Positions 28,525-49,216 of a stretch of 64,000 nucleotides of DNA are shown one piece after another. Origin of the DNA: Alphaproteobacteria bacterium LSUCC0396 (GTDB taxonomy: Bacteria; Pseudomonadota; Alphaproteobacteria; Puniceispirillales; Puniceispirillaceae); assembly GCA_041228345.1 (NCBI GenBank), contig CP166131.1, positions 1,853,001 to 1,917,000 on the forward strand. Direction: 5' to 3'. Below the pieces are notes generated by a model that had not been told where the DNA came from, did no database searches, and saw only the letters and a program-made list of their open reading frames with translations. Numbering within the stretch: position 1 is the first letter of the stretch; each line of letters opens with the position of its first letter. The translations under genes and the position numbers were made by a program.

Positions 28525-28584
<60 letters not shown>

Positions 28585-28600
<16 letters not shown>

Positions 28601-28660
28601 CTTTTTCTCTTACATCACTGAAATATAAGCGTTTATCGTGCTAACAGCTCTGGTGACGCT
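28585..28660 (+). repeat. 76-bp inverted repeat, left copy (att-like)
   Basis: Covers the last 16 bases of tRNA-Phe, 60 bases of flank and the non-native start region of the integrase frame. It is the exact reverse complement of 30133-30208; identity ends at 28584/30209 on the outer side and 28661/30132 on the inner side. Confidence 0.9.
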
Positions 28661-28664
28661 CAAA

Positions 28665-29807
28665 ATGACGTACAAAACACGCCCATCACATTTACGTAAT
28701 CGCGATGGCATTTATCACTTTATCCGCCGTATTCCGGCCGACCTTCAAAGCCATTACCGGTCTGACCGCATTTGCTTAAGCCTCAGAACTAAATCTGCAC
28801 CCGCAGCATCTCGGGCTGCTGGCTCAATCTCTCAACGGCTCGATGACTACTGGTCTGGCCTACTTTTGCAAAAAATGGATGTTCCCGCCATTCACCTTCT
28901 TATCGGCAATAATGATGATGCAAAGCACGACAGCCCAACATTAAAGGAGGCGGTTGAGGTGTATTTGCTTTTGAAGGGTGACGCTACTAATCCAGTCTTC
29001 GCAAGAACAGCAAGACGGAATGGCCGCTATGTGATTGAAGCCCTTGGCAACAGGCCTATTACTGCTTACTCGTCTGCGGATGCGGCTAAGTTCCGAGATT
29101 ACCTATTTGAAAATAGCCTCAGTTTAGGCAGTGTGAGGCGAATATTTGGCTCAGTCAGGTCAATTATAAACCTTGTTATGCGAGAGCAAGGCATTGAAGG
29201 TACCAATGCCTTTGCGAGAACTTATATGCCCCAAAGGTATGACCAAAAGGAAAGACAGCCTATTCCTTCGGCTGCGCTCTTGGTACTTCAGCAGAATTGC
29301 AAGGATAAAGACGATGAAGCCCGCTGGTTAATTGCGCTTATTAGCGACACGGGGATGCGGCTAGCAGAGGCTGCTGGGCTGGCAATGAATGATATTTGTC
29401 TTGATGAAGAACTACCTCACATTTCTATCCGAACGCACTCTTGGCGAAGGTTAAAAACAAGAAGCAGTGAGCGTGTAGTTCCGCTCGTTGGTGCATCGCT
29501 ATGGGCGGCAAAGCGCCTGCATCAGAGGGGCGGCGCATTTGCCTTCCCGCGTTATTGTAATGAGCAAGGGTGCAATGCAAATTCAGCGAGTGCTGCATTA
29601 AATAAGTGGATGAAAGGGGTCGTTGGCAATGAATATGTTATCCACGGCCTTCGACACAGTCTACGAGACAGGCTTAGGGCAGTAGAATGTCCATCGGATA
29701 TAACTGACCAGATAGGTGGCTGGACGACAGAGGGTGTGGGCCACGGCTATGGCAGGGGTTATAATTTGGAGGTTATGGCCAAGTGGATGCGAAAAATTGA
29801 GGCGTGA
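28665..29807 (+). CDS. Tyrosine recombinase/integrase
   Basis: Site-specific integrase of the phage/genomic-island type, about 380 residues. The N-terminal arm SHLRNRDGIYHFIRRIPADLQSHY is typical of island integrases. The catalytic residues are visible: Arg in ISDTGMRLAEAAGL, a Lys-containing beta-hairpin region, HGLRHSLRDR (H-x-x-R), the Trp in QIGGWTTEGVGHGYG and the nucleophile Tyr of GYGRGY. I start at the ATG at 28665; the longer frame from 28638 begins inside the inverted repeat (MLTALVTL) and shares that N-terminus with the opposite-strand DUF1330 frame only because of the repeat. Location directly after tRNA-Phe supports island mobility. Confidence 0.9.
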   Translation: MTYKTRPSHLRNRDGIYHFIRRIPADLQSHYRSDRICLSLRTKSAPAASRAAGSISQRLDDYWSGLLLQKMDVPAIHLLIGNNDDAKHDSPTLKEAVEVYLLLKGDATNPVFARTARRNGRYVIEALGNRPITAYSSADAAKFRDYLFENSLSLGSVRRIFGSVRSIINLVMREQGIEGTNAFARTYMPQRYDQKERQPIPSAALLVLQQNCKDKDDEARWLIALISDTGMRLAEAAGLAMNDICLDEELPHISIRTHSWRRLKTRSSERVVPLVGASLWAAKRLHQRGGAFAFPRYCNEQGCNANSASAALNKWMKGVVGNEYVIHGLRHSLRDRLRAVECPSDITDQIGGWTTEGVGHGYGRGYNLEVMAKWMRKIEA

Positions 29808-32710: not shown

Positions 32711-33592
32711 TCAGTCCAAAGTTTGACCATCATAGTAAATTCCGTCATTGCGCTGAAAATACTGCCGCGCCAGCCAGCTGCACATACCATCCAATCCAGG
32801 GAATAACACTCTTTCAGTGATGTTCGATTGATCAAGTTTGTCACGAATCTCCCATTTAAGATCCGCAGGGATCACGATTTTCCTCCAGATATCGGGCTTT
32901 TTATGCAACCAGTCCGTCATCGGCTTGCAAGCGCCAATTTGCACAGAAAAGCATGCAAACTGGTTCACAATCCTTGAGCTAATTGAAGGGGGTTCGAAAA
33001 AAACGACCTGCTCTAATCGTGACGGATCGCTGACATTTTCCAGCGATTTTATGACGCTGGACAGCATTTCGTCCGTGAAGACGTGTGCGCCTTCGCGAAA
33101 AAGTCGCTCTTTCAAAGAGGCCTCCAGATGATCATGGGCCCGATGATAGTCAACCATCCAGATTGCGCCATCATGCTCCATGGATTCTAGATTGGCGCAT
33201 GCGAAATGCGCCGAGATCAGCGGCGAATACGTCCAGTCAAGAAGCCGGGTCGGGAGGCCGTGATGCTGGGCCAACGCAATCCAGTGCCAAAAGTTCTTGG
33301 GTTGGTCCTCCGACGCGCCCAAATGCGATTTGGCATACTTTATGAAATTGCGAAGCAGGTGCTTCTCCAGATTGACCTGTTTACCGCTGTTTCGAGACAG
33401 GCTTGGTGACAGCTCGTACTCGGCTCTGGAATGCCCCCTGAAAAGGTAGTGTGACCGGTGCCGTCTTATTTGCTGGTTCCAAGAGCTGTCGTGCAGGGCT
33501 TCCAGAAGCTCAACCCAAGTAGTCACCGTGACTGTACTTTCAGATAGCGACCGATTTAATATTATGTCTTCACGCGCTGGCCTGTTGTTCAT
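32711..33592 (-). CDS. FRG-domain protein
   Basis: A 293-residue protein with the FRG domain, named for its Phe-Arg-Gly motif: HYLFRGHSRAEYELSPSLSR (about 50), then FWHWIALAQHHGLPTRLLDWTYSPLISAHFACANLE (about 105-140). FRG proteins are often found in mobile and defence-associated loci, but a biochemical role is not settled. It is alone on the minus strand next to tRNA-Arg and divergent from the TRAP genes. Its C-terminus after about residue 220 has no domain I recognise. Confidence 0.82.
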   Translation of the reverse strand: MNNRPAREDIILNRSLSESTVTVTTWVELLEALHDSSWNQQIRRHRSHYLFRGHSRAEYELSPSLSRNSGKQVNLEKHLLRNFIKYAKSHLGASEDQPKNFWHWIALAQHHGLPTRLLDWTYSPLISAHFACANLESMEHDGAIWMVDYHRAHDHLEASLKERLFREGAHVFTDEMLSSVIKSLENVSDPSRLEQVVFFEPPSISSRIVNQFACFSVQIGACKPMTDWLHKKPDIWRKIVIPADLKWEIRDKLDQSNITERVLFPGLDGMCSWLARQYFQRNDGIYYDGQTLD

Positions 33593-33693: not shown

Positions 33694-33724
33694 TTGACTA
33701 GCCACCAAATTATGTTCGTATACT
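33694..33724 (+). promoter_or_regulatory. Candidate promoter of the TRAP operon
   Basis: TTGACT and TATACT are separated by 19 bases, about 46 bp before the TAXI receptor ATG. The spacing is slightly long, so this is only a candidate. Confidence 0.4.
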
Positions 33725-33769
33725 AACAAATAAAAAGTAAAATAGACAGCTTCAGCAAGGAGGAACACC

Positions 33770-34756
33770 ATGATTTTAAAGCGTAAGTTAACCATTGGCG
33801 CACTCGCCGCGGCGGCTCTATTCGCGGCTCATCCGGTGAGTGCAGCATCGAATATCACCCTTTGCGGCGGCAGCCCCGGAGGCCTTTGGTCGCTGCTCGG
33901 CGCGGGCCTTGATGCCGCCGTTCGCAAAATCGAGCCGGACACGACAGTTACATATCAGACATCCAGTGGTGGCTTTGCGAACATCGTTCAGGTGGCGCAG
34001 GGAAAATGCGACCTAGCCATTGTGCATGTCGCTGAAGTGGTGATCGCACAGCGTGGTGAAGAGCCGTTCAAAGAGCCGACAGGTGGCGTTGAGGCTGTTT
34101 CGATGCTCTATGACTGGGCTCCCATGCAATGGGTTATAGACAAAAACTATGCTCAGACAAATGGCCTAAACTCCATTGCCGACCTTGCCAGTTCCAAAGA
34201 ATCATTCGATTTGGTAGTGAATCGGCGAGGTATTTTGCCATCGATTCTGGCTGAGAAGTCACTTGCCGATGTTGGCGTCACGTTTGACGGCATCGAGAGC
34301 AAGAAAGGCAGTGTGCAATTCCAAGGTTCCGGTGGCGCATCCAAGATCATGCAAGATGGCAAGGCAGATGCCTGGGTTAATGCGACGTTCATCGGTAGTG
34401 GACAAATCAGGGCCATTGCCGAGAAACGTGAACTCACGCTGTTGTCTGTCCCGGACAAAACCATCGCGATGATGCAAGAAAAATACGGCTCTAAGGCTGT
34501 TACGATTCCGGCGGGTGCTTACCCATGGCTGGACAAGGAAGTGAAAACTTTCGGCGCTTCGGCCGCTCTTATAGCGGCTAAAGATGCAGATCCTGCCTTG
34601 GTCAAACTTGTGACTACGGCGATCTTCCAGAACCCCTCAGAGATCCAGGGCGTTCACAAGGCGATGCGCGCGTTCAACGGTGAACTGGCTGCATCCCTCA
34701 AGTCGTTCAAGTACCATCCAGTTGCTGCAGAAGTCATATCCGCAGCAGGCTTCTAA
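33770..34756 (+). CDS. TAXI-family TRAP transporter solute receptor
   Basis: Periplasmic substrate-binding protein of a TAXI-type TRAP transporter, 328 residues. It has a clear signal peptide (MILKRKLTIGALAAAALFAAHPVSAA) and the family core ITLCGGSPGGLWSLLGAGLDAAVRK, TSSGGFANIVQVAQGKCDLAIVHVAEV and GSGGASKIMQDGKADAWVNATFIGSGQIRAIAEK. A strong AAGGAGG precedes the ATG. The ligand is unknown; TAXI receptors bind organic acids such as glutamate in known cases. It is followed at 81 bp by the fused permease. Confidence 0.92.
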   Translation: MILKRKLTIGALAAAALFAAHPVSAASNITLCGGSPGGLWSLLGAGLDAAVRKIEPDTTVTYQTSSGGFANIVQVAQGKCDLAIVHVAEVVIAQRGEEPFKEPTGGVEAVSMLYDWAPMQWVIDKNYAQTNGLNSIADLASSKESFDLVVNRRGILPSILAEKSLADVGVTFDGIESKKGSVQFQGSGGASKIMQDGKADAWVNATFIGSGQIRAIAEKRELTLLSVPDKTIAMMQEKYGSKAVTIPAGAYPWLDKEVKTFGASAALIAAKDADPALVKLVTTAIFQNPSEIQGVHKAMRAFNGELAASLKSFKYHPVAAEVISAAGF

Positions 34757-34837
34757 GCAGACACCCATATGCGTCAGCCATGTTTCTGCAATGGCTGACG
34801 CAACACACCTTACCTTCTTGACAATGGAATAGGCCTG

Positions 34838-36748
34838 ATGGGTAGTGTCTTAAGTCTTCTATTTTCAACGGGACCGCGACGGCATTTGACCGGGTGGCTT
34901 TATTGGCCCGTTCGTATTTACACTGCTCTCTTCACGGTTTGGGTCCTTTGGGCCGCGGTCTTTTCTCGCACCGACGCGTTGTCGCTGACCGTTGTGTTCC
35001 TGTCTTTGATCTTTGTTCCGTCTTTCCTCCTTATTGGCGCAACGGAACGCGCAAACCCTTGCAAGCCCGGCGTCATTGACTGGCTCTTGTCCGCGCTGGC
35101 CGCAGTGTGTGCAGCCTATTTCATTTATTTCATTCCTGAGACCGCCTCTCGCATAAGTCTGCTTTTTGATTTGCGAGTGGATCAGTTTGTTATGGCGGGC
35201 ATATTAATCCTGCTGACACTTGAAATTACACGGCGAACAGTTGGCGTGTTTCTGATGATGATTGTTGTGGCATTCATCTTGTATAACCTCTACGGGCACC
35301 TTATCCGTGGCCAACTTGGGCATGGGTATATTTCGTTTTCGCATTTTATCGATATTAACGTCTACACAACGGACGGCCTGTTTGGCGTGCCGGTCCGCGT
35401 CGCGGCTACATATGCGTTTCTCTTCGTGATGTTTGGAACATTCCTGGAGAAGGCAAAGGGTGGTGACTTCTTTTTCGGGCTTGCGGCTGCGCTATCAGGT
35501 CGTTCGGTAGGCGGGCCTGCCAAGATTGCCGTTTCGTCCTCTGCTTTGTTCGGCACGATGTCCGGTAGCCCGACTTCAGACGTTGTCGCGACTGGTTCAA
35601 TTACCATTCCGATGATGAAAAGGCTGGGATACCGACCCGAACTTGCGGGTGGTGTCGAGGTGGCGGCCTCGACAGGGGGAAGCTTGCTACCCCCTGTCAT
35701 GGGCTCGGCCGCGTTTATCATGGCCGAGATGACCAATCTTGACTATGGAGAGATCGTGCTGGCAGCCTTGGTGCCTGCGCTTCTCTACTATCTCGGTATT
35801 TTCATCCAAGTACACCTCAGATCGGTTGCGCTGGGCCTCGCGCCTCTGGATGAAACAGAGGTCCCAAACCTTGCAGACACATTTCGGAAGGGGTGGATAT
35901 TTCTGGTTCCACTTGGTGGCCTTGTCTCCCTACTTGTTGTGGGATATTCCCCAACAATGGTCGCGGCCGGTAGCGCGTTTCTGGTTTGGCTGGTCTCTTT
36001 CTTAAGGCCCGAAACCAGATTAGGATTCAAGGGCACCATTGAGGCGCTGTCGGAAACCACGATACGCATGCTGGCCGTAACAGGGGCCTGCGCGGCCGCA
36101 GGGCTTGTCATAGGCGGAATCACGATGACCGGGTTGGCGGCGAAATTCTCTTTTGTCGCCTTTTCATTGGCTGGTGATCAGGTCCTTGTAACGCTTTTTC
36201 TAAGCGCCGTAGTAACTATCATTTTAGGGCTTGGTATGCCAACGCCCAGCGCTTACGTGCTCGCGGCTGTATTGGTGGGTCCAACCCTTGTGAACGACTA
36301 TGGCTTTCAAGAGTTGAATGCCCATCTCTTCCTTTTGTATTTCGCGGTTATGTCCGCCATGACACCACCAGTGGCTGTCGCCGCTTACGCGGCCGCTGCG
36401 ATTTCGGGCGCAAACCCACTGAGAATTGCGGTTATATCTATGCGATTTTCTATCGTTGCCTTCATTGTGCCGTTCATCTTTGTGCTGAACCCCCTATTGT
36501 TGACCCCAGTTGCAAGCCCCCAAGCGATTGCAGTGTGCTTGGCAACAGTTCTGGCCTGTACTCTGATCGCAGTAGCTTCGGAGATATGGTGGCTGGACAA
36601 GTTATCTGGGCCCATTCGGGCTGCAATGGTCTTGGCCGCCTTGGCACTGTCCGTCCCCTACATGAGTTGGAAACTTCTTGGAGCGTCAATTGGTCTGGGG
36701 CTGCTTATTCATTGCTACCGAGGATATCAAAACTACCGGTTCCAGTAA
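34838..36748 (+). CDS. TRAP transporter permease, 4TM/12TM fusion
   Basis: Single-chain membrane component of a TAXI TRAP system, 636 residues with about 16 or more helices. The N-terminal third corresponds to the small DctQ-like subunit and the rest to the DctM-like subunit, shown by GLAAALSGRSVGGPAKIAVSSSALFGTMSGSPTSDVVATGSITIPMMKRLGYRPELAGGVEVAASTGGSLLPPVMGSAAFIMAEM and GLGMPTPSAYVLAAVLVGPTLV. It pairs with the preceding receptor to import an unknown anion with sodium or protons. Confidence 0.93.
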   Translation: MGSVLSLLFSTGPRRHLTGWLYWPVRIYTALFTVWVLWAAVFSRTDALSLTVVFLSLIFVPSFLLIGATERANPCKPGVIDWLLSALAAVCAAYFIYFIPETASRISLLFDLRVDQFVMAGILILLTLEITRRTVGVFLMMIVVAFILYNLYGHLIRGQLGHGYISFSHFIDINVYTTDGLFGVPVRVAATYAFLFVMFGTFLEKAKGGDFFFGLAAALSGRSVGGPAKIAVSSSALFGTMSGSPTSDVVATGSITIPMMKRLGYRPELAGGVEVAASTGGSLLPPVMGSAAFIMAEMTNLDYGEIVLAALVPALLYYLGIFIQVHLRSVALGLAPLDETEVPNLADTFRKGWIFLVPLGGLVSLLVVGYSPTMVAAGSAFLVWLVSFLRPETRLGFKGTIEALSETTIRMLAVTGACAAAGLVIGGITMTGLAAKFSFVAFSLAGDQVLVTLFLSAVVTIILGLGMPTPSAYVLAAVLVGPTLVNDYGFQELNAHLFLLYFAVMSAMTPPVAVAAYAAAAISGANPLRIAVISMRFSIVAFIVPFIFVLNPLLLTPVASPQAIAVCLATVLACTLIAVASEIWWLDKLSGPIRAAMVLAALALSVPYMSWKLLGASIGLGLLIHCYRGYQNYRFQ

Positions 36749-36761
36749 TGCGATCTTTCCG

Positions 36762-36789
36762 TTGCAATTGCTTTAACCCCCATTATAAT
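36762..36789 (+). promoter_or_regulatory. Candidate sigma-70 promoter before the NadC-like gene
   Basis: TTGCAA (36762-36767) and TATAAT (36784-36789) are 16 bases apart and 30 bases ahead of the ATG at 36819. It would allow the two enzyme genes to be expressed apart from the transporter. Confidence 0.5.
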
Positions 36790-36818
36790 TGTTAGTACAC
36801 AAATGAAAGGAAGCTAAC

Positions 36819-37655
36819 ATGTTGCTTGACCTTCGCAAGATCAATAATTTGATCGACCTGTGGCTCGACGAGGATGTTAATTACTATGATCTGACAGCAA
36901 AGATCATGGTAGAAGACGAGGCCGTGGCCAATTTTGGTATGAATGCGAGGGAGCCCATTATTCTCTCAGGCCTAAAAATTGCAGAAATGGTCTTCAAGAA
37001 AATGGACCCCGACTGCAGCTTTGTAACAAACCATAAGGACGGCGACAGGGTTGAAAAAGGGGAGACTTTCGCAGTCGTCACCGGCAACGCACAGGGGCTT
37101 TTGACGGCAGAGCGAGTAGCCCTCAACCTGATTCAGCGTATGTGCGGGATTGCTGGCTTAACCGCACAATATGTCGACGCCATAGATGGCACCGGCGTCA
37201 CATTAATTGACTCACGCAAGACAACACCGGGTCTGCGGATGATTGAAAAATATGCGGTGGTTTGTGGCGGTGGCCGCAGTCATCGGCTCGGCCTGGATAA
37301 TGGGATCATGCTGAAGGACAACCACATTGCCGTTGCCGGCAGCATTACGGCGGCCGTTCAGCGCGCTAAAGCCTATGCGCCAATTCTAACCAAGATCGAA
37401 GTCGAATGCGATCGTCTGGACCAGGTCGAAGAAGCATTGGCAAGCGGCGTTGATGTTATCATGCTTGACAACATGAGCAACGAAGACATGGCAAGGGCTG
37501 TTGGAATGGTCGACAAACGAGTTCCGCTTGAATGCTCCGGCGGTGTGCGGCTTGAGACAATTCGGGCCAAGGCAGAAACCGGTGTGGACTACATCTCGGT
37601 TGGGCGCCTCACCCAGTCTGTAGCTTGCGTTGACATCGGCTTGGACGAAATCTGA
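36819..37655 (+). CDS. NadC-like quinolinate phosphoribosyltransferase family enzyme
   Basis: A 278-residue member of the quinolinate phosphoribosyltransferase superfamily, which joins PRPP and a pyridine dicarboxylate to give nicotinate mononucleotide. Family parts present: EDVNYYDLTAKIM, GLLTAERVALNLIQRMCGIAGLTA, the active-site run DSRKTTPGLRMIEKYAVVCGGGRSHRLGL, MLKDNHI, VEVECDRLDQVEEAL, VIMLDN and SVGRLTQS. It deviates from typical NadC: EDxGxGDxT is changed to EDVNYYDLT, N-H-R to S-H-R, and LTHS to LTQS. HRLGL recalls ModD. No nadA or nadB is nearby. The base accepted may therefore not be quinolinate (inference). An AAGGAAG site precedes the ATG. Confidence 0.85.
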   Translation: MLLDLRKINNLIDLWLDEDVNYYDLTAKIMVEDEAVANFGMNAREPIILSGLKIAEMVFKKMDPDCSFVTNHKDGDRVEKGETFAVVTGNAQGLLTAERVALNLIQRMCGIAGLTAQYVDAIDGTGVTLIDSRKTTPGLRMIEKYAVVCGGGRSHRLGLDNGIMLKDNHIAVAGSITAAVQRAKAYAPILTKIEVECDRLDQVEEALASGVDVIMLDNMSNEDMARAVGMVDKRVPLECSGGVRLETIRAKAETGVDYISVGRLTQSVACVDIGLDEI

Positions 37656-37686
37656 AGCTCAATTCTCTTTATTGGGGAGAGATCTA

Positions 37687-39735
37687 ATGCCTGGGACACT
37701 GTTTCTTGTGGTTGGGCCAAGCGGCGTTGGAAAAGACACTTTGCTTCACGGAGCGCGTGAAGCTTTGGAGGGTAGATGGTTTCGTTTCCCGCAACGGGTC
37801 ATAACGCGCCCCACCGACGCAGGAGGCGAAAACCACAAGCCTGCGACGGATGCGTCTTTTGAAGACATGGTTTCAAATGATGCCTTCCTGCATTATTGGA
37901 AGGCTCACGGACTCAGATATGGCATCCCGCGCGATATCATTGGTGATCTTGAGGCGGGCGTCAATGTGGTGGTTAACACCTCCAGAATGGAAGTCGAGGC
38001 TTTCCAACGCAAAGCGCCAAGAACGGTCGTAATTTGCATAAATGCGGCTAAGGACGTAATTGCGGCACGTTTGAGAGTACGTGGAAGGGAAACAGAAGAT
38101 GAGATCAGCCGCCGCCTCGAGAGAACTGTTGAGCAATCCGCTAATATCGAGAGTGCGGTAGAGATATTCAACGACACAACCGTGCAAGAGGGGACCGAGA
38201 GGCTGGTCGAGGTCATTGCTGGCTCTTGCGACCTTTATGCTGAAGCAAATGAGTTTCCCGGAGATTTCGCATCAAAAGCGCTTTGTTTGTTGCATTCTGA
38301 AAATCCAGTCGCGACGCGATTGCTGGCGGGGACAGAGAGGGTGGCCATTTATGCAAACGGCAAATCGATAACGGCCGATCTGGGGTGGACTGAAACTGCG
38401 TCATTTGTGAAGAGGGACATTTGTGCCGTATCTGAGAAGGTTCTGTCCACCTTAGGCGTTGAGCCAGGTCACCCCGTGAGAATCGAACGGTCACCCGCGC
38501 CCGAAAGTCGCGCTATTCTTCAAAAGAAGGTGCGCGGTGGTGAGTTGAACTCGAATGAAATCCACAGGATAGTCAGAGATCTTGTGGATGGAAGGTTCAG
38601 CGCTTCTGAAATTGCCGGCTTCTTGGTGTCGGCTTCGCGCAACCTGACAATTGACGAGGTCGTCGAATTGACAAGAGCGCGTGCACAATACGCACATAAA
38701 CAAAAATGGAACGCGGGTATTGTTGTGGACAAGCATTCCATGGGCGGCATTCCAGGCAATAGAGTCTCACCGATTATCATTCCGATCATTGCGTCTTTTG
38801 GACTGATCATGCCAAAAACATCATCTCGGGCGATCACTTCAGCGGCCGGAACGTCCGATGTCATGGAAGTACTTGCGAGGGTTGACCTTACCCCGGAACA
38901 GATGGCACAGGTTGTCAACAAAACCGGCGCTTGTATCGCCTGGAACGGCCGTCTGACGCACTCACCTGTTGATGACGTGATGAATTCCATCAACGGCCCT
39001 CTGGGCCTTGCCTCGGCGCTATTGGACACTTCCTCGATCTTATCCAAGAAACTGGCTGCGGGGTCGACGCATGTTCTGATCGATTTGCCGATCGGACCTC
39101 AGGCAAAAACGGTTTCACGGGAAGACGGCGAAAGCCTGAAGCAACTTTTTGAAACGGTTGGGGCTGGTGTTGGGCTTAAAGTTCATACCTACCTATCGGA
39201 CGGGACAAAGCCTGTCGGCCGTGGTGTCGGACCTGTACTGGAAACGATTGATGTGCTGAAGGTTCTGTCGAATGAAACGGATGCCCCACAAGACCTTCTG
39301 GAAAAATCGGTTCAGTATGCGGCACATATTCTTGAATGGACCGGAGCAGTCGACAGAGGCCAAGGGCATGGCAAGGCTATGAGCATTTTAACAAGCGGTG
39401 AAGCCTACGAAAAACTGCAGGAAATTGTGCTTGCTCAAGGCAGCCAAGCAAAAAAACTAAACCCTGGGCGATTTACATTTGAAATCGATGCGGACAGAAG
39501 CGGCACTATTGAAGAAATCGACATTCAGACGATCGCCGCACTCGCCAGAGCGGCCGGCGCACCGCTCGACAAGTCTGCGGGGGTCTACCTTTGCGCAAAT
39601 GTCGCGTCGACAGTTGAAAAAGGCCAAACATTATTACGCATTCACGCCTCTAGCCAAAAGGCACTTGAAGAAGCGGTCGCTAAAGTGAATGAAATGTCGT
39701 CGATTGTTCGAAAATGGTCTGAAGCGTCTTGTTAG
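37687..39735 (+). CDS. PhnN–AMP phosphorylase fusion (ribose 1,5-bisphosphokinase + nucleotide phosphorylase)
   Basis: A 682-residue two-enzyme protein. Residues 1-180 resemble PhnN, which phosphorylates ribose 1,5-bisphosphate to PRPP: Walker A GPSGVGKD (10-17), RVITRP, GENH, HGLRYGIPRDI, RVRGRE. Residues about 195-682 resemble archaeal-type AMP phosphorylase (thymidine phosphorylase family): a cradle-like N-domain at about 200-290, then KHSMGGIPGNRVSPIIIP (from 349), PKTSSRAITSAAGTSDVMEVL and TGACIAWNGRLTHSPVDD. AMP phosphorylase makes ribose 1,5-bisphosphate from NMP and phosphate, so one active site makes the substrate of the other. The ATG at 37687 has a GGGGAG site; an earlier start at 37630 would overlap the previous gene. 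No RuBisCO or ribose-1,5-bisphosphate isomerase is nearby. The catalytic order is inference; domain identity is strong. Confidence 0.9.
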   Translation: MPGTLFLVVGPSGVGKDTLLHGAREALEGRWFRFPQRVITRPTDAGGENHKPATDASFEDMVSNDAFLHYWKAHGLRYGIPRDIIGDLEAGVNVVVNTSRMEVEAFQRKAPRTVVICINAAKDVIAARLRVRGRETEDEISRRLERTVEQSANIESAVEIFNDTTVQEGTERLVEVIAGSCDLYAEANEFPGDFASKALCLLHSENPVATRLLAGTERVAIYANGKSITADLGWTETASFVKRDICAVSEKVLSTLGVEPGHPVRIERSPAPESRAILQKKVRGGELNSNEIHRIVRDLVDGRFSASEIAGFLVSASRNLTIDEVVELTRARAQYAHKQKWNAGIVVDKHSMGGIPGNRVSPIIIPIIASFGLIMPKTSSRAITSAAGTSDVMEVLARVDLTPEQMAQVVNKTGACIAWNGRLTHSPVDDVMNSINGPLGLASALLDTSSILSKKLAAGSTHVLIDLPIGPQAKTVSREDGESLKQLFETVGAGVGLKVHTYLSDGTKPVGRGVGPVLETIDVLKVLSNETDAPQDLLEKSVQYAAHILEWTGAVDRGQGHGKAMSILTSGEAYEKLQEIVLAQGSQAKKLNPGRFTFEIDADRSGTIEEIDIQTIAALARAAGAPLDKSAGVYLCANVASTVEKGQTLLRIHASSQKALEEAVAKVNEMSSIVRKWSEASC

Positions 39736-42880: not shown

Positions 42881-43663
42881 TCAACAACCTTTCCAGACAG
42901 GGTCTCTTTTTTCAGAAAAAGCACGAGCTCCCTCGAGCTGGTCTTCAGAATTATAGAGTTTTTCAACAGTTGGTAGTTGGCTTTTAGTAACCCGGTTTAG
43001 CGCATCTTGAAAATTCATATCCTCTGCCATACGAACCACTTCTTTTATGGCTGCATAAACAAGAGGTGGGCCAGAGGCTAAAAGCTGGGCTATTTCTCGT
43101 GCTTTTTCCATAATTTGATCTCTGGGATAAATATGGTTAACCAGACCCCATTTAGCGGCTTCATGAACATCAATCCAGCGACCAGTTAGCAGCATCTCCA
43201 TTGCGATATGATAAGGGATGCGTTTCGGTAACTTGATAGAAGCTGCATCTGCAACTGTGCCTGAGCGAATTTCGGGGAGAGCAAAAGTTGCGTGTTCCGC
43301 AGCCAAAATAATATCGCAAGAGAGGGCCATCTCTAGCCCGCCACCGCAACAAATACCGTTTACGGCACAAATTAATGGCTTGTTCAGATGCGGCAATTCC
43401 TGCAATCCACCAAAACCACCAACGCCGTAATCACCATCTACAGCATCGCCTGTTGCCGCTGCTTTCAAATCCCACCCGGCTGAAAAAAATTTATCACCAG
43501 CGGCGGTGAGAATAGCCACTCTTAGTTCTGGGTTGTCGCGGAAACCGAGGAAGACTTCTCCCATTTGCCTGCTGGTCACCAAATCTATAGCGTTGGCCTT
43601 TGGCCGATCGATCGTCACTTCTAAAACATGACCATTGATTTGAGTTTGAATGGGGCTAGGCAT
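42881..43663 (-). CDS. caiD: CaiD-like crotonobetainyl-CoA hydratase / carnitinyl-CoA dehydratase
   Basis: Enoyl-CoA hydratase family member, 260 residues, very close in pattern to CaiD, which interconverts crotonobetainyl-CoA and carnitinyl-CoA: LEVTIDRPKANAIDLVTSRQMGEVFLGFRDNPELRVAILTAAGDKFFSAGWDLKAAA, and the ending RAFSEKRDPVWKGC. The oxyanion loop CCGGGLEMALSCDI is present; the catalytic Glu region is EIRSGTVADAA. The ATG at 43663 gives the best GGAG spacing and overlaps the upstream gene by 8 bp, so it is the last gene of the operon. The name rests on pattern similarity and on the carnitine genes upstream. Confidence 0.88.
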   Translation of the reverse strand: MPSPIQTQINGHVLEVTIDRPKANAIDLVTSRQMGEVFLGFRDNPELRVAILTAAGDKFFSAGWDLKAAATGDAVDGDYGVGGFGGLQELPHLNKPLICAVNGICCGGGLEMALSCDIILAAEHATFALPEIRSGTVADAASIKLPKRIPYHIAMEMLLTGRWIDVHEAAKWGLVNHIYPRDQIMEKAREIAQLLASGPPLVYAAIKEVVRMAEDMNFQDALNRVTKSQLPTVEKLYNSEDQLEGARAFSEKRDPVWKGC

Positions 43664-45695
43664 CTGCATTTTCTCCAATCCGAATAAGCGCGTCCACTGC
43701 AACTGCTGACTTGGATGTCAGGATCAGCGGATTAATTTCAATTTCAGCCAAACTAGCACGTCTGTCTAGCACACATGTCTGCATCGCCAGCACGGCCTTG
43801 ACTAGGGCAGGTTTATCAACCGCCGGCTTGCCACGATAGCCTGTCAACATGGGAGCTAATTTAAGCTGCTGAAGAGCGTTCAGAATATCATTCTGATTGA
43901 CGGGCAATGACAGGCTTACACTGTCTCTGAGTAACTCTGTAAATACCCCGCCCGCAGCGAGAGTAAGCACATATCCGTGCGCAGGGTCACCAACAATTCC
44001 GACAAGCAATTCAACAATTGAATCAGTTATAAATTCTTCGATTATATAACGTTGTTGATCCATTTCTAACATTGCTCTTTTCAGCTCAGTTTGATCCGAA
44101 AGCCCTATTATAACCCCTCCGACCTCCGACTTATGAGCCTCACCAATGGCTTTAAGAACAACAGGATATGGAAAGGGCAAGGTTGCTGGCAACTTGTCTT
44201 GAGCCACCACTATATAATGCGGTAAATCAACGCCATAATCCGACAAAATAGCTTTTGACGTTATCTCATCTAATATATGTGTTTGGCCAAGGCGGGGCGC
44301 CGCAATTACAGATGCTTCAGGTGCTGGATGAACTGAGGCTACTGACGCAATAGCTGCTAGCCCAACCTCTAGACCACACAACGGGACAAGGCCCGCCTTA
44401 GCTATTTGTAAAGCGCGATCTTCCGGCATGTTTTCAGGGAGAGAGGCAAGCAGCGCAACGGCTTTAGAGGTGCGCTTTTGTGCTATCCGCGCCGCCTCAA
44501 TAACACAATCCCATGCGGCACCATCACATCTATCTGCGCGCGGAAAATCCACCACAATGATACCAAAATCGATGGGAGCATCAAGAATTGCACTATAGAC
44601 ATCAGCCATTGCGGGCAAATTGCCCCAAACATATGTATGATAATCTAACGGATTAGCTAAGGCGACCTTCTCACCCAAAACGGATCGTAGACCGTCTCGT
44701 TGGGTTTCGGTCAGTGCTGGGAAAACGACCCCGTTCTGCTGCCTGTGTGCAGTGTCCGCCATCAAACTGGCTTCTCCACCGGAGCATGAGGCTGAGACCA
44801 GTCTTTTGCCGGTCAGTGGACCAACTTGGTGCAGAATTTTCAGAGCCTCAATCATCTCAGCTAGACTATTAACCCTAGCTATACCAAGGCGCGCTAGAAG
44901 CGCATCTGCCGATGTCGCGCTGCCTGCTAATGAAGCAGTATGGGAAATGGTTGCTTGCTGCGCCTGTTCTGACCAGCCAACCTTCAAAGCAACAATAGCT
45001 TTGTTACGCATAGAAGCATGGCGCGCCAAACTTTCAAAATCATCTAGATCACCAATACCTTCAATATAGAGTCCTAACGCCGTTACCCGCGGATCATCTA
45101 ACACTGCCCGCCCCAATGCCGCCAAACTCGTTTGCGCCTGATTGCCTGCTGTCAGTGCATAGGCGATGGGCAGACCGCGCTGTTGCATAGATAAATTAAT
45201 CATTATGTTGGAGCTTTGCGTGACAATAGCCACACCAGTATCAACAGCTCGCCCACCATGCTGGTCCGGCCAAAGGCAAAACCGATCAAGGTAATTCACA
45301 AAACCGTAGCAATTAGGCCCGATGATAGGCATTCCACCTGCCGCATCAATCAGCGCGGACTGCAATGTGGCGCCATCAGCATCTTCTTCTTTGGCCTCCA
45401 GAAAACCAGAGGCAAAACATACAGCACCGCCAGCACCTTTTGCGCTCAGAGCTCTCACCTGGTCAATAGTGGCGAACCGGTTCACTCCAATAAAGGCTGC
45501 GTCTGGAGCGCTCGGCAAATCACTTACTGAGCGATAAGTAGAGACGCCGGCTAAGGTTTCTGCGGTGGGATGAACCGCAAAAATCTGACCCTCAAAACCA
45601 AGTTTTTGGCATTGGTCTATAACTGAACGTCCCCATACCCCGCCACCGATTACCACAACATTTTTTGGGTTTAATAATCGGCGCAAGTCAGACAT
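43656..45695 (-). CDS. NDP-forming acyl-CoA synthetase
   Basis: A 679-residue acyl-CoA synthetase of the ADP-forming type, which links acid, CoA and NTP through a phosphohistidine. Domain order: CoA-binding Rossmann (VVIGGGVWGRSVIDQCQKLGF, about 10-130), a succinyl-CoA-ligase-like part with the phosphorylated His in TISHTASLAGSATSADALL (about 250), and an ATP-grasp domain at 470-675 (VVLKAIGEAHKSEVGGV, YIIEEFITDSIVELLVGI). The acid is unknown; in this operon a quaternary-amine acid such as gamma-butyrobetaine or crotonobetaine fits. It lies 18 bp after the acyl-CoA dehydrogenase gene. Confidence 0.87.
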   Translation of the reverse strand: MSDLRRLLNPKNVVVIGGGVWGRSVIDQCQKLGFEGQIFAVHPTAETLAGVSTYRSVSDLPSAPDAAFIGVNRFATIDQVRALSAKGAGGAVCFASGFLEAKEEDADGATLQSALIDAAGGMPIIGPNCYGFVNYLDRFCLWPDQHGGRAVDTGVAIVTQSSNIMINLSMQQRGLPIAYALTAGNQAQTSLAALGRAVLDDPRVTALGLYIEGIGDLDDFESLARHASMRNKAIVALKVGWSEQAQQATISHTASLAGSATSADALLARLGIARVNSLAEMIEALKILHQVGPLTGKRLVSASCSGGEASLMADTAHRQQNGVVFPALTETQRDGLRSVLGEKVALANPLDYHTYVWGNLPAMADVYSAILDAPIDFGIIVVDFPRADRCDGAAWDCVIEAARIAQKRTSKAVALLASLPENMPEDRALQIAKAGLVPLCGLEVGLAAIASVASVHPAPEASVIAAPRLGQTHILDEITSKAILSDYGVDLPHYIVVAQDKLPATLPFPYPVVLKAIGEAHKSEVGGVIIGLSDQTELKRAMLEMDQQRYIIEEFITDSIVELLVGIVGDPAHGYVLTLAAGGVFTELLRDSVSLSLPVNQNDILNALQQLKLAPMLTGYRGKPAVDKPALVKAVLAMQTCVLDRRASLAEIEINPLILTSKSAVAVDALIRIGENADA

Positions 45696-45713
45696 GCCAA
45701 TTGCCTTCCCGGA

Positions 45714-46874
45714 TTAGGCGCCCAGTGGACGCAAAAGATCGCGACTGATGATATGACGTTGAATTTCAGAGGTGCCATCCCAAATCCGCTCGACCCTTGC
45801 ATCACGCCAAAAGCGTTCAATTGGATAATCACTCATTAATCCCATACCGCCATGTATCTGCAAGGTGCTATCAGTCACTCGAGCCAGCATTTCCGTTGCA
45901 TAGAGCTTCGCAGATGCGATTTCACGATTAGCAGGCAAGCCTTTATCTAACCGCCACGCTGAAGCAAGAGTTAGATAATCTGCGGCATCAATCTCAGTCA
46001 GCATATCGGCCAACTGAAAACTGACACCCTGGAATTTGCCAATAGGCTGGCCAAATTGTTTACGGTTTGCGCTGTAATCAAGCGCATAATCAAAACAGCG
46101 ACGGGCTCGACCGACACTCATTGCGGCAACTGTTATGCGCGTTGCGTAAAGCCATGTACTCATCAACTCAAAGCCACCGTCAACTTCACCAAGAACCTGT
46201 GCGTTTGGCAGTCGGCAGTCATTAAATTCCAGAACCATATTTTTATAACCTCGATGGCTGACTGACTGATAACCATCACGAATGGTAAATCCCGGTGTTC
46301 CACGATCTACAAGGAAAGTTGTAATTCGCTTTTTGGGTCCTCGTGGGGTATCCTCCTCACCTGTCGAGACAAAGACAATCAAAAAATCTGCGTGTTCCGC
46401 ACCAGAAATAAAATGCTTGCTGCCATTCAAAATCCAGTCATTACCATCACGTACAGCGGCGCATTTCATCGATCGCACATCAGAACCAGCATCGGGCTCC
46501 GTCATCGCCAGCGCATCCATCTTCTCGCCACGAACCGCTGGCAAAAGATAGCGCTCAATTTGCTCACCTTTACATGCCATTAGGATATTTTGTGGTCGAC
46601 CAAAAAAATGTGTGAGTGCCATAGAGCCACGGCCAAGTTCACGTTCAACCAAGGCAAATTCTAGATGGCTTAGCCCAGCACCACCAACAGACCCTGGAAA
46701 ATTACAGGCATAAAATCCTAGGTTGCGGGTTTTATTGATTATGTCTTTGGCAATTTCCTTTGGCACTTCACCTGTTCGCTCAACCAGATTTTCATGTGGA
46801 TAGATTTCTTTTTCAACAAAGCTGCGCACGGTCGTGACAATCATCTTCTGTTCTTCAGATAAACCAAAATCCAT
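45714..46874 (-). CDS. Acyl-CoA dehydrogenase (candidate butyrobetainyl-CoA dehydrogenase)
   Basis: FAD-dependent acyl-CoA dehydrogenase, 386 residues: MDFGLSEEQKMIVTTVRSFV, the FAD-binding MTEPDAGSDVRSMKCAAVRDGNDWILNGSKHFISGA and the C-terminal helical bundle with LQIHGGMGLMSDYPIERFWRDARVERIWDGTSEIQRHIISRDLL. The catalytic base position of the common Y-E-G-T motif holds Asp here (WDGT). By context it would oxidise gamma-butyrobetainyl-CoA to crotonobetainyl-CoA. The ATG at 46874 is chosen because the family starts with MDFxLSEEQ; it is 31 bp after the carnitine dehydrogenase gene. Confidence 0.86.
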   Translation of the reverse strand: MDFGLSEEQKMIVTTVRSFVEKEIYPHENLVERTGEVPKEIAKDIINKTRNLGFYACNFPGSVGGAGLSHLEFALVERELGRGSMALTHFFGRPQNILMACKGEQIERYLLPAVRGEKMDALAMTEPDAGSDVRSMKCAAVRDGNDWILNGSKHFISGAEHADFLIVFVSTGEEDTPRGPKKRITTFLVDRGTPGFTIRDGYQSVSHRGYKNMVLEFNDCRLPNAQVLGEVDGGFELMSTWLYATRITVAAMSVGRARRCFDYALDYSANRKQFGQPIGKFQGVSFQLADMLTEIDAADYLTLASAWRLDKGLPANREIASAKLYATEMLARVTDSTLQIHGGMGLMSDYPIERFWRDARVERIWDGTSEIQRHIISRDLLRPLGA

Positions 46875-46905
46875 CTCGTTGCCCCTTATTCTTTCCAGTC
46901 TGCCC

Positions 46906-48294
46906 TCATAACAATGCAAGCGCTTCAGCGACCGGGCTCAGCGGTGCGCATGATTTACGCGTTACAAGGCTAACATGTAGCAGAAACTGCTCACATGAAG
47001 CCAATAGTCTATTATCGTCAGCCCGCTTCATCTGATGGGCCAATTTTAGTTTTTTGCCATCAGCCATCATTACTTCTGTTTCTACAATCACTGCGTCGCC
47101 GGCATGCGTTTCCTGCACGTATTTAATTGCTGTCTCAACTGTAAAGTAGCTATAACCGCCGGCAACATATGTTTCATTCATACCGATGCTTGCCAAAAAA
47201 CTATCTGCGGCATCAGAAAAAACCTGTCCATAGCGGCTTTCATTCATATGGCCGTTATAATCCGTCCAGTCGATTGGAATGATACGGGAAATGGTGCGGG
47301 ACGCGCGTGCGGCTTTCGCCGGTAGAGAAATTGTCTTCTCATGCGCTTTGATTAGCTGGCCTGCGGCACTTCCCTGCTGTTTAAGAGCGCGCATCATAGC
47401 GACCAAATTATTATCTCGTAAACGCTCTAACGCACGTATCGTCATTGCCCCTGACTGGGCATCAGACTGACTAGCAATTTTTTCAACAAGCTCTTCGGTT
47501 AGCTCAGGCACATCCGTGAGCTTGGTCCAAGGCCATTTCAGAGCAGGCCCAAATTGTGAGAGAAAATGTGCCATCCCTGCCTCACCGCCAGCGATGCGAT
47601 AGGTTTCAAAAAGGCCCATCTGTGCCCAGCGCAAACCAAACCCATAGCGGATCGCATTATCAATTTCTTCAGTGTTTGCTATGCCGTCCTTGATCAGCCA
47701 CAGCCCCTCGCGCCAGACTGCTTCTAAAAGGCGGTCAGCAATATGGGCATCAATTTCCTTTCTTATATGTAGTGGAAATAGCCCAACCTTTAAGAGGGTT
47801 TCTTTTGCCGCGGCAATTTGACCGGGCCCAGTTATAGGACTTGGTACAAGTTCAATCAATGGCAAAAGATAAACCGGATTGAACGGATGACAGACCATGA
47901 TCTGTTCTGGACGAGGACTACCTTCTTGCAATTCGGATGGCTTGAACCCTGAGGTGGAAGAGGCTAGCACTGCGTCCTCTGGGCAATTGGCCTGAATTTC
48001 AGCAAATACCTTTTGCTTCAGCTGAAGCCGTTCCGGCACAGATTCTTGGATATAGCTTGCATTTTGCACGGCCTGAGCAATTGTGTTGCACAGACGTATG
48101 TTACCCTCAACAGGTAGACTTGTTTCATAAAGCATCGGCAAGGCATGACGAGCATTAACCAATACATCGCTGATTTTGCGTTCTGCCTCGGGATCTGGAT
48201 CGTAAAAAGATACGTCCCAGCCATTTAAAAGGAATCGTGCTAGCCAACCCGCTCCAATTACACCGCCACCGATAATCGCAATTGTCTTTGTCAT
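46906..48294 (-). CDS. L-carnitine dehydrogenase / betainyl-CoA thioesterase fusion
   Basis: A 462-residue bifunctional protein. The N-terminal part (1-320) is a 3-hydroxyacyl-CoA-dehydrogenase-type NAD enzyme: IAIIGGGVIGAGWLARFLLNG, SSTSGFKPSELQEGSPRPEQIMVCHPFNPVYLLPLIELVP, which fits carnitine 3-dehydrogenase. From about 338 a hotdog thioesterase follows: IDWTDYNGHMNESRYGQVFSDAADSFL. This same fusion is known as L-carnitine dehydrogenase/betainyl-CoA thioesterase (CdhA-CdhB) in other bacteria. It would make 3-dehydrocarnitine and later release glycine betaine from betainyl-CoA. The ATG at 48294 has an AAGGAG site; it is ten bases after the cleavage-enzyme gene. Confidence 0.9.
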   Translation of the reverse strand: MTKTIAIIGGGVIGAGWLARFLLNGWDVSFYDPDPEAERKISDVLVNARHALPMLYETSLPVEGNIRLCNTIAQAVQNASYIQESVPERLQLKQKVFAEIQANCPEDAVLASSTSGFKPSELQEGSPRPEQIMVCHPFNPVYLLPLIELVPSPITGPGQIAAAKETLLKVGLFPLHIRKEIDAHIADRLLEAVWREGLWLIKDGIANTEEIDNAIRYGFGLRWAQMGLFETYRIAGGEAGMAHFLSQFGPALKWPWTKLTDVPELTEELVEKIASQSDAQSGAMTIRALERLRDNNLVAMMRALKQQGSAAGQLIKAHEKTISLPAKAARASRTISRIIPIDWTDYNGHMNESRYGQVFSDAADSFLASIGMNETYVAGGYSYFTVETAIKYVQETHAGDAVIVETEVMMADGKKLKLAHQMKRADDNRLLASCEQFLLHVSLVTRKSCAPLSPVAEALALL

Positions 48295-48304
48295 TATCCG
48301 CTCC

Positions 48305-49216
48305 TTAGCCGTGTGGCGCACGCTTTATCAGTTTGAGCTGCTTACGCACCTCATCGGGACCAATCACGCGAGCGCCCATTGCCTCAATAATGGTCTTTGA
48401 GCGGGCGACCAGCTGTTGGTTAGTAGCCAAAACACCTTTGTCCAGCCAAAGATTATCTTCCAGCCCAACTCTAACATGACCACCGGCTAAAACAGCCGCT
48501 GCAACATAAGGCATCTGATGACGTCCCAGTGAAAACGCAGAGAAGGTCCAGGTTTCAGGCACGTTATTGACCATCGCCATGAAGGTGTTGAGGTCATCTG
48601 GTGCACCCCACGGAACACCCATGCAAAGCTGAACAAGCACATCCGGTTTTAGCACGCCGTCAGCAACTAGTCGCTTGGCGTACCATAAATGGCCAGTATC
48701 GAACGCCTCAACCTCGGGCTTCACCCCGAGCTCAGTCATCATCCGGCCCATTTCCATCAGCATGCCTGGGGTGTTTGTCATCACATAATTTGCTTCGGCA
48801 AAATTCATAGTTCCACAATCAAGTGTGCAAATTTCGGGCAGACATTCCGCCACATGCGCAACACGTTCCACTGCACCGGCCATGTCGGTGCCTGCCGCCA
48901 GTGGTAGAGGGTTTTCTGTGCCGCCAAAAATCATGTCCCCGCCCATGCCTGCTGTCAGGTTCAACACTACATCCACCGCTGAGTCACGGATCCGGTCCGT
49001 AACTTCACGATAATAGGCAAGATCACGGCTCGGCCTGCCTGTTTCTGGGTCACGCACATGGCAATGAACAATCGCAGCTCCTGCTTTGGCGGCAGCAATG
49101 GCGCTTTTAGCAATTTGTTTAGGGCTGCGCGGCACATGTGGACTTCGATCCTGCGTCCCACCGGATCCTGTGATTGCACAGGTAATAAAAACCTCTTTAT
49201 TCATAATTAATGGCAT
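48305..49216 (-). CDS. Beta-keto acid cleavage enzyme (dehydrocarnitine cleavage)
   Basis: DUF849/BKACE family, 303 residues, a Zn-dependent TIM-barrel enzyme that cleaves beta-keto acids with acetyl-CoA. The Zn-binding HCHVRD and the barrel motifs LNLTAGMGGD, EICTLDCGTMNFA, PEVEAFDTGHLWYAKRL and GGHVRVGLEDNLWL are present. With the adjacent carnitine dehydrogenase it should turn 3-dehydrocarnitine into acetoacetate and betainyl-CoA (CdhC role). A GGGGGAG site lies five bases from the ATG at 49216. First gene of the operon running to 42881. Confidence 0.9.
   Translation of the reverse strand: MPLIMNKEVFITCAITGSGGTQDRSPHVPRSPKQIAKSAIAAAKAGAAIVHCHVRDPETGRPSRDLAYYREVTDRIRDSAVDVVLNLTAGMGGDMIFGGTENPLPLAAGTDMAGAVERVAHVAECLPEICTLDCGTMNFAEANYVMTNTPGMLMEMGRMMTELGVKPEVEAFDTGHLWYAKRLVADGVLKPDVLVQLCMGVPWGAPDDLNTFMAMVNNVPETWTFSAFSLGRHQMPYVAAAVLAGGHVRVGLEDNLWLDKGVLATNQQLVARSKTIIEAMGARVIGPDEVRKQLKLIKRAPHG

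Follow-up and report, generated by a model that had tools for sequence, protein, structure and literature searches.

The 64,000-nucleotide stretch of DNA analysed here (the window; Alphaproteobacteria bacterium LSUCC0396, contig CP166131.1, positions 1,853,001 to 1,917,000) contains a cassette of four intact, open genes that are adjacent and co-directional. The genes encode a TAXI receptor and a fused permease of a TRAP transporter, a NadC-family enzyme and a fusion of PhnN with a nucleoside monophosphate (NMP) phosphorylase. The same arrangement had been described in an earlier sequence-only reading of this DNA, and both coordinates and families agree. The locus comprises the following features.

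33770..34756, + strand: TAXI-family TRAP solute receptor, the proposed receptor for quinolinate (TIGR02122, 114 bits; cut-off 84)
34838..36748, + strand: fused TRAP permease (TIGR02123, 554 bits; cut-off 321)
36819..37655, + strand: quinolinate phosphoribosyltransferase (QPRTase; NadC) of the cassette clade, identified by TIGR00078 nadC (322.2 bits; cut-off 198.4), residues and tree
37630..39735, + strand: PhnN–phosphorylase fusion in its full reading; the likelier start is the ATG at 37687, preceded by GGGGAGAG
37687..38229, + strand: PhnN domain of the fusion, a ribose 1,5-bisphosphate phosphokinase forming 5-phosphoribosyl 1-pyrophosphate (PRPP) (TIGR02322, 178.9 bits; cut-off 156; match to residues 22-197 of the 37630 reading, domain end approximate)
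38308..39735, + strand: NMP-phosphorylase domain of the fusion, a proposed nicotinate mononucleotide (NaMN) phosphorylase (TIGR02645, 484 bits, cut-off 435; NF003338, 564 bits, cut-off 434)
32711..33592, - strand: FRG-domain protein, divergent, just upstream of the TAXI gene (PF08867, 100 bits)
33714..33727, no strand: palindrome GTTCGTATACTAAC upstream of the TAXI gene, a candidate operator of a BpsR-type MarR regulator, from sequence
36791..36804, no strand: weaker operator-like site GTTAGTACACAAAT upstream of nadC, with two mismatches and a counterpart, also with two mismatches, in the related locus L002 at 9159

The closest solved relatives of the window receptor are TAXI-type receptors. 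The site at 36791..36804 is weak, since another palindrome match with two mismatches lies inside the TRAP gene at 36230. The ratio of nonsynonymous to synonymous substitution rates (dN/dS) between the window and its two nearest relatives, L002 and L003, is 0.06-0.11 for the TAXI, TRAP and NadC genes and 0.14-0.22 for the two fusion halves; that of the FRG gene is 0.09-0.13. Because these values are well below 1, the cassette genes are under purifying selection. General decay of the window cassette is thereby excluded, with a warning sign remaining at residue 456 of the phosphorylase.

Recurrence of the cassette and its genomic neighbours

Further loci were obtained from a genome scan, from plasmids and from samples of 385 genomes of the class and 398 genomes of the phylum (genomes and loci are designated by G and L numbers, with G000 for the window genome). 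A genomic-context search, as proposed in the sequence-only reading, recovered the four-gene set (TAXI, TRAP, NadC and fusion) together in five loci besides the window. NadC adjoins the fusion in all 12 fusion loci examined, and the transporter type varies. TAXI-TRAP genes are found in six of the 12 (the window, L002, L003, Pacificitalea, G125 and G795), NMT1/ABC genes in two (G412 and Paraburkholderia), a major facilitator superfamily (MFS) gene in two (G664 and G720) and a receptor annotated as the TTT type in one (Variovorax); no transporter is seen at the remaining locus, that of G785. L002 and L003 are close copies with the same gene order, and their fusions are 84% and 80% identical to that of the window. 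The NadC of L002, whose host genome measures 6.9 Mb, is 90% identical to the window NadC. Plasmids carry the loci of Pacificitalea manganoxidans (the same four genes), Variovorax sp. SRS16 and Paraburkholderia sp. 22B1P, and the class and phylum samples yielded those of G125, G412, G785, G664, G795 and G720. Close relatives of the cassette NadC without an adjoining fusion occur in Paracoccus zhejiangensis, G130 and G490. In GC-rich loci, some of the called genes are in wrong frames; BLAST or Pfam searches served to verify the key genes.

The window genome has likely acquired the cassette horizontally. A tRNA-Phe gene is directly followed by a gene that resembles, by eye, a tyrosine integrase (window 28525-29807), and a search for direct repeats of the tRNA in the flanks found none. 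A repeat-bounded integrative element was rejected, as none of the four direct-repeat families found resembles an att site of a tRNA gene. Phage carriage was also rejected, as all 14 phage records that match NadC do so at less than 60% identity. In L003 (6246-9761), the fusion gene is shortened at its 3' end (619 codons) and lies near an integrase-like gene. The metagenome-assembled genome (MAG) of L003 is labelled Flavobacteriaceae, yet the closest relatives of its cassette are alphaproteobacterial.

In three relatives (L141, L108 and L111), genes for nicotinate degradation border the cassette; L141, from G801, and L002 are parts of one contig. The gene run of L141 encodes a FAD subunit, a molybdenum (Mo) hydroxylase, 6-hydroxynicotinate reductase, a UPF0280 protein, two AA_synth proteins, enamidase, FdxA and a ferredoxin reductase and continues with MarR, FRG, TAXI, TRAP, NadC and the fusion, the cassette forming its end. 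In L108 (G785), 6-hydroxynicotinate reductase adjoins NadC, and in L111 (G720), a single MFS gene lies between NadC and a 6-hydroxynicotinate 3-monooxygenase (matching 5eow at 1.3e-170). The window genome contains a cluster (L140) approximately 1.1 Mb from the cassette that encodes 6-hydroxynicotinate reductase, enamidase and a Mo hydroxylase. The reductase, so named because relatives carry this annotation in public records, is 69% identical to that of G785, and the enamidase takes its name from its best PDB match, ENAMIDASE 2vun (6.5e-105). The reductase is present in five of nine cassette hosts and in neither of two further, cassette-free genomes in the same search. It is also present in all three fusion genomes of the class sample (Fisher p = 0.005), a modest support that takes the fusion and reductase counts as covering the same 385 genomes.

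A UPF0280-type protein accompanies the reductase in L140 (8542-9549), L141 (8853-10865) and L108 (11655-13790); NCBIfam calls the protein hypothetical. Paired AA_synth (PF06684) proteins stand beside the reductase in L141 and L108.

Regulator genes and a shared palindrome

A BpsR-like MarR gene adjoins the cassette in six of the 12 loci (L002, L003, L040, L108, L110 and L111), and the MarR protein of the Paraburkholderia cassette matches BpsR (6pcp/6pco) at 3.5e-52. DNA binding by BpsR is relieved by 6-hydroxynicotinate, according to the available portion of PMC6837509, which does not state the operator of BpsR. The residues for 6-hydroxynicotinate (Tyr15, His23, Arg26 and His32) are all found in the L040 and L111 proteins. 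Tyr, Arg and His are kept, with His23 replaced by F or Y, in the MarR proteins of L002, L003, L108, L110, L148 and the window genome, and the Variovorax MarR does not exhibit the pattern. The MarR gene of the window genome, located in the nicotinate cluster, shares 48% identity with the MarR of the L002 cassette.

The 14-bp palindrome GTTnGTATACnAAC was derived by eye from the window and then tested elsewhere. Exact copies are located upstream of the window TAXI gene, where it is the sole match in the window with at most one mismatch, and in the nicotinate cluster L140 of the same genome (chance expectation at up to one mismatch of 0.06 for the window and 0.03 for L140). L002 contains two exact copies, one before the TAXI gene and one at the enamidase/ferredoxin promoter, and L108 contains one ahead of the conserved portion of its MarR gene. 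With one mismatch, the palindrome is found before the TAXI genes of L003 and Pacificitalea, at two more sites in G785, close to the NadC and reductase genes, and at one site in the nicotinate cluster of G412. With at most one mismatch, it is present in the window and in seven of 33 other sequences of 6 kb or longer; all of these are cassette or nicotinate loci, and L002 and L141 among them come from the same contig. The same threshold gives matches in seven of 23 promoter regions scanned. Since 115 of the 149 sequences scanned are shorter than 6 kb, a count over 148 loci is less telling than one over the longer sequences.

NadC, the phosphorylase and NAD-synthesis genes

The window NadC does not reach the modD cut-off (101 versus 179 bits), which excludes a ModD identity. 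The substrate-binding positions checked (R133, K134, H155, R156, K166, E196 and D217) are kept in all 12 cassette NadCs; their correspondence to human numbering, beyond the residues documented for the human enzyme, is assigned by motif. The available text of PMC4726147 gives H160, R161 and K171 as substrate-binding residues of human QPRTase. The cassette NadCs form one group in the tree (support 90/87), which includes the P. zhejiangensis protein and is separate from the NadCs that these hosts have in linkage with NadA. The sequence-only reading had taken altered motifs (EDVNYYDLT, SHR and LTQS) as arguing against ordinary NAD synthesis. The motif letters are as it gives them, but as a sign of a new base they did not hold: the nadC model is passed, the substrate-binding residues are kept, SHR occurs in three of the 12 cassette NadCs as a sub-group trait and, among 31 other NadCs compared, 15 share the Q of LTQS. 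Residue conservation across NadCs thus excludes the motif changes as a sign of new specificity. By its sequence, the window NadC is an ordinary QPRTase, and quinolinate is most likely the base used by the cassette NadC because the nadC model is passed far above its cut-off and the checked substrate-binding residues are kept.

The 12 fused phosphorylases form one clade (support 100/100) against 24 stand-alone phosphorylases. Fixed differences between the fused and the 24 stand-alone proteins are found at 351 (R/M), 439 (N/G), 444 (H/L) and 452 (N/I), several of which change a nonpolar residue to a polar or basic one. These changes would suit a carboxylated pyridine and would be expected for a changed base. 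The window fusion does not pass the equivalog model of adenosine monophosphate (AMP) phosphorylase, TIGR03327 (417 versus 535 bits), and passes the broader TIGR02645 and NF003338.

In L004 (9896-12342), L005 (9803-12330) and L043 (7944-10324), a stand-alone NMP phosphorylase gene is directly followed by a PRPP-synthetase homologue. What we take to be a metallo-beta-lactamase-fold gene accompanies the pair in L004 and L005. Such a pair may offer another, PhnN-independent way of turning NMP ribose into PRPP. The Zhengella and Parahaliea loci, which encode a stand-alone phosphorylase and a PRPP-synthetase homologue, were set aside as no NadC is seen in the stretches examined.

NAD-synthesis genes were compared across 61 genomes of the window organism's family, presumably SAR116, including G000; many are incomplete, and 28 are of high quality. 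NadA has no match in the window genome or in any of the 61, in line with the absence of nadA pointed out in the sequence-only reading. Nicotinate and nicotinamide phosphoribosyltransferases (NAPRTase/NAMPT) are likewise found in none of the 61, the window genome included. PnuC is above the cut-off in none of them, with seven weak matches in the family and none in the window genome. NadD is present in the window genome, in 56 of the 61 and in all 28 of high quality. A full-length QPRTase is found in G000 only, where that of the cassette is the single copy; a match of 62 residues in G055 exceeds the cut-off, and no QPRTase is found in a 94% complete MAG of the same species as the window organism. 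The available part of a SAR116 paper contains nothing on nicotinate or NAD. The sequence-only reading had named, as a result that would overturn it, a NadC that is the only and normal one of its genome; the enzyme is indeed the only one, and a normal de novo role is not borne out, NadA being absent. The other such result it named, a failure of the four genes to recur as a set in other genomes, is contradicted by the five further loci.

Proposed quinolinate cycle and its alternatives

Gene identities, linkage, the separate NadC paralogues of some hosts and the shared palindrome, which are read from the sequence, suggest that the cassette is probably a quinolinate-catabolic module linked to nicotinate degradation. 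In the proposed mechanism, the TAXI-TRAP transporter would import quinolinate, and NadC would convert quinolinate and PRPP to NaMN, CO2 and pyrophosphate (PPi), with removal of one carboxyl group. The phosphorylase half of the fusion would then cleave NaMN with phosphate (Pi) to nicotinate and ribose 1,5-bisphosphate, which the PhnN half would return to PRPP at the expense of one ATP. The net reaction would be quinolinate + ATP + Pi -> nicotinate + CO2 + ADP + PPi. Nicotinate would be degraded via the hydroxylase, 6-hydroxynicotinate reductase and enamidase, and a BpsR-type MarR repressor would co-regulate the cassette and nicotinate degradation. The window organism may in addition use NaMN for NAD synthesis by way of NadD. 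It is slightly favoured, at close to even chances, that PRPP acts catalytically, as a regenerated handle in the degradation of a heterocycle, and that the three steps of NadC, NaMN phosphorylase and PhnN close into a cycle by which the cell grows on quinolinate, decarboxylating it to nicotinate.

The earlier interpretation is partly supported by these results. Genomic context supports its import of a pyridine-type acid and its formation of PRPP by the fusion for use by the NadC enzyme. Its base-ribosylation pathway gives way to a catabolic decarboxylation cycle, as the product most likely leaves the nucleotide state as nicotinate. Its statement that no pathway with this set had been described agrees with the literature on quinolinate or nicotinate, in which no account of such a cycle was found at the level of titles and opening lines of abstracts of mostly open-access papers. 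As far as this search reaches, a catabolic nucleotide-carrier cycle of this kind has not been described before.

Several observations weigh against the catabolic reading. The Mo enzyme belongs to the xanthine-oxidase family, and nicotinate dehydrogenase (3hrd) is among its matches, not the best of them. Four of the nine cassette hosts (G795, G664, G720 and the MAG G802) have no reductase; the enzyme is common in the class (68 of 385 genomes) and present without the cassette in the sister genome G024, and the Pacificitalea and Variovorax cassettes are not beside nicotinate genes. No MarR gene is next to the window cassette, and the palindrome is absent at up to two mismatches from the cassette loci L106, L110, L111 and L040 (G125, G795, G720 and Paraburkholderia) and is absent upstream of the window genome's own MarR gene. 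The window phosphorylase has Gly at 456, where 35 of 35 relatives compared have Arg, and also deviates at 389 and 409, the three positions being invariant in all 35. The arginine lost at 456 is that before the SILSKK motif, which we take to correspond to the base-contacting arginine of thymidine phosphorylase. The transporter substrate, NaMN as the substrate of the phosphorylase, the cycle and the repressor role are what we infer. Moreover, the cassette NadC is the only QPRTase found in G000, G125, G785 and G795, and the second match in G720 reaches just 24 bits. NAD supply may be part of the cassette role in hosts without a second QPRTase.

The last point bears on quinolinate salvage for NAD, in which imported quinolinate would be converted by NadC to NaMN, NadD and NadE would complete the synthesis and the fusion would merely make PRPP from AMP or other NMPs. 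The window genome, with NadD and without a NadA or NAPRTase/NAMPT match, would suit such a salvage. So would the Bordetella proteins Bug27 and Bug69, which bind quinolinate in vitro with sub-micromolar affinity, and the bug27 orthologues of Variovorax and Jezberella, which adjoin nadC and phnN and are read as part of NAD metabolism in the available text of PMC11452294. However, G801, G412 and G664 have a second, distant NadC beside NadA (PF02445, 346-371 bits), accompanied in G801 and G412 by NadB. Because this separate NadC sits beside NadA, the cassette NadC is spare for NAD in these three genomes. In addition, the set is connected with nicotinate degradation through its linkage, the type of its regulator and the palindrome, and the rest of the family, with 28 of 61 genomes of high quality, manages without a full-length QPRTase in these searches. 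Salvage for NAD is rather unlikely as the explanation of the cassette; catabolic and NAD-salvage roles may both apply in the window genome because NadA and NAPRTase matches are absent there. Considerably less probable is the view of the sequence-only reading, in which another pyridine or aromatic acid would be the substrate of the NadC-like enzyme and a new nucleotide its product. The dedicated transporters and the distinct NadC group (90/87), with some group-specific residues, would agree with a new base, but the checked QPRTase substrate-binding residues are kept, the nadC equivalog is passed (322 versus 198 bits) and no further enzyme that would act on a new nucleotide is seen conserved with the set.

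The accessory genes raise the question of an NAD-related defence or stress module, in which FRG or SIR2 would consume NAD and NadC and the fusion would restore NaMN. An FRG gene is present in seven of the 12 cassette loci and SIR2_2 in two others, nine in total. Similar SIR2_2-domain proteins are encoded beside the fusion at L106 (6622-7824) and L111 (5479-6684), where other cassettes have FRG. Both families have been linked to NAD in the literature, and the available text of PMC9503650 places Frg in the ADP-ribosyltransferase (ART) superfamily as a possible NADase. On the other hand, neither FRG nor SIR2_2 is seen in three of the 12 cassettes, and the transporters and the nicotinate-catabolism linkage do not fit such a module, which makes defence highly improbable. 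The FRG gene is a co-conserved accessory gene whose role the catabolic reading does not account for. AlphaFold prediction of the FRG protein from three sequences gave no usable fold (mean predicted local distance difference test score, pLDDT, of 32).

The cassette shares individual elements with known systems. The NadC reaction is that of the NadABC operon for de novo NAD synthesis, but the window genome has no NadA, and G801, G412 and G664 have NadA next to a NadC that is separate and distant from the cassette one. Downstream genes and a BpsR-type regulator are common to nicotinate degradation via 6-hydroxynicotinate (the reductase/enamidase or NicC branch). Known nicotinate-degradation pathways begin from nicotinate, whereas the cassette would add an entry from quinolinate by a nucleotide cycle. 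The phosphorylase belongs to the same wider family as the archaeal AMP phosphorylase (solved relative 4ga5) of the pentose bisphosphate pathway, which yields ribose 1,5-bisphosphate. In archaea, the ribose bisphosphate proceeds to an isomerase and then Rubisco, as stated in the available part of PMC9700705, whereas the fused PhnN of the cassette would return it to PRPP. The closest likeness in arrangement is offered by the bug27-nadC-phnN set of Bordetella and Variovorax, in which a periplasmic receptor and PhnN accompany NadC; the locus of Variovorax sp. SRS16 looks alike. The window receptor differs in being of the TAXI-TRAP type, and a phosphorylase fused to PhnN, FRG/SIR2 and nicotinate catabolism are not mentioned in the available text on that set (PMC11452294).

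Elsewhere in the window (42881-48321), genes that by eye we take to encode an acyl-CoA synthetase, an acyl-CoA dehydrogenase, an enoyl-CoA hydratase and a 3-hydroxyacyl-CoA-dehydrogenase/thioesterase fusion look like a catabolic cluster of the carnitine type.

If the catabolic reading is correct, an NAD-biosynthesis enzyme would have become catabolic by pairing with a carrier-recycling fusion, and quinolinate, usually viewed as an intermediate or a neurotoxin, would be a bacterial food source. The PhnN–phosphorylase fusion would gain a function and several so far unassigned TAXI-TRAP, ABC, MFS and Bug transporters a ligand. The nadC genes of nadA-less genomes would have to be read differently, and the cassette that carries one of them here seems transferable between bacteria.

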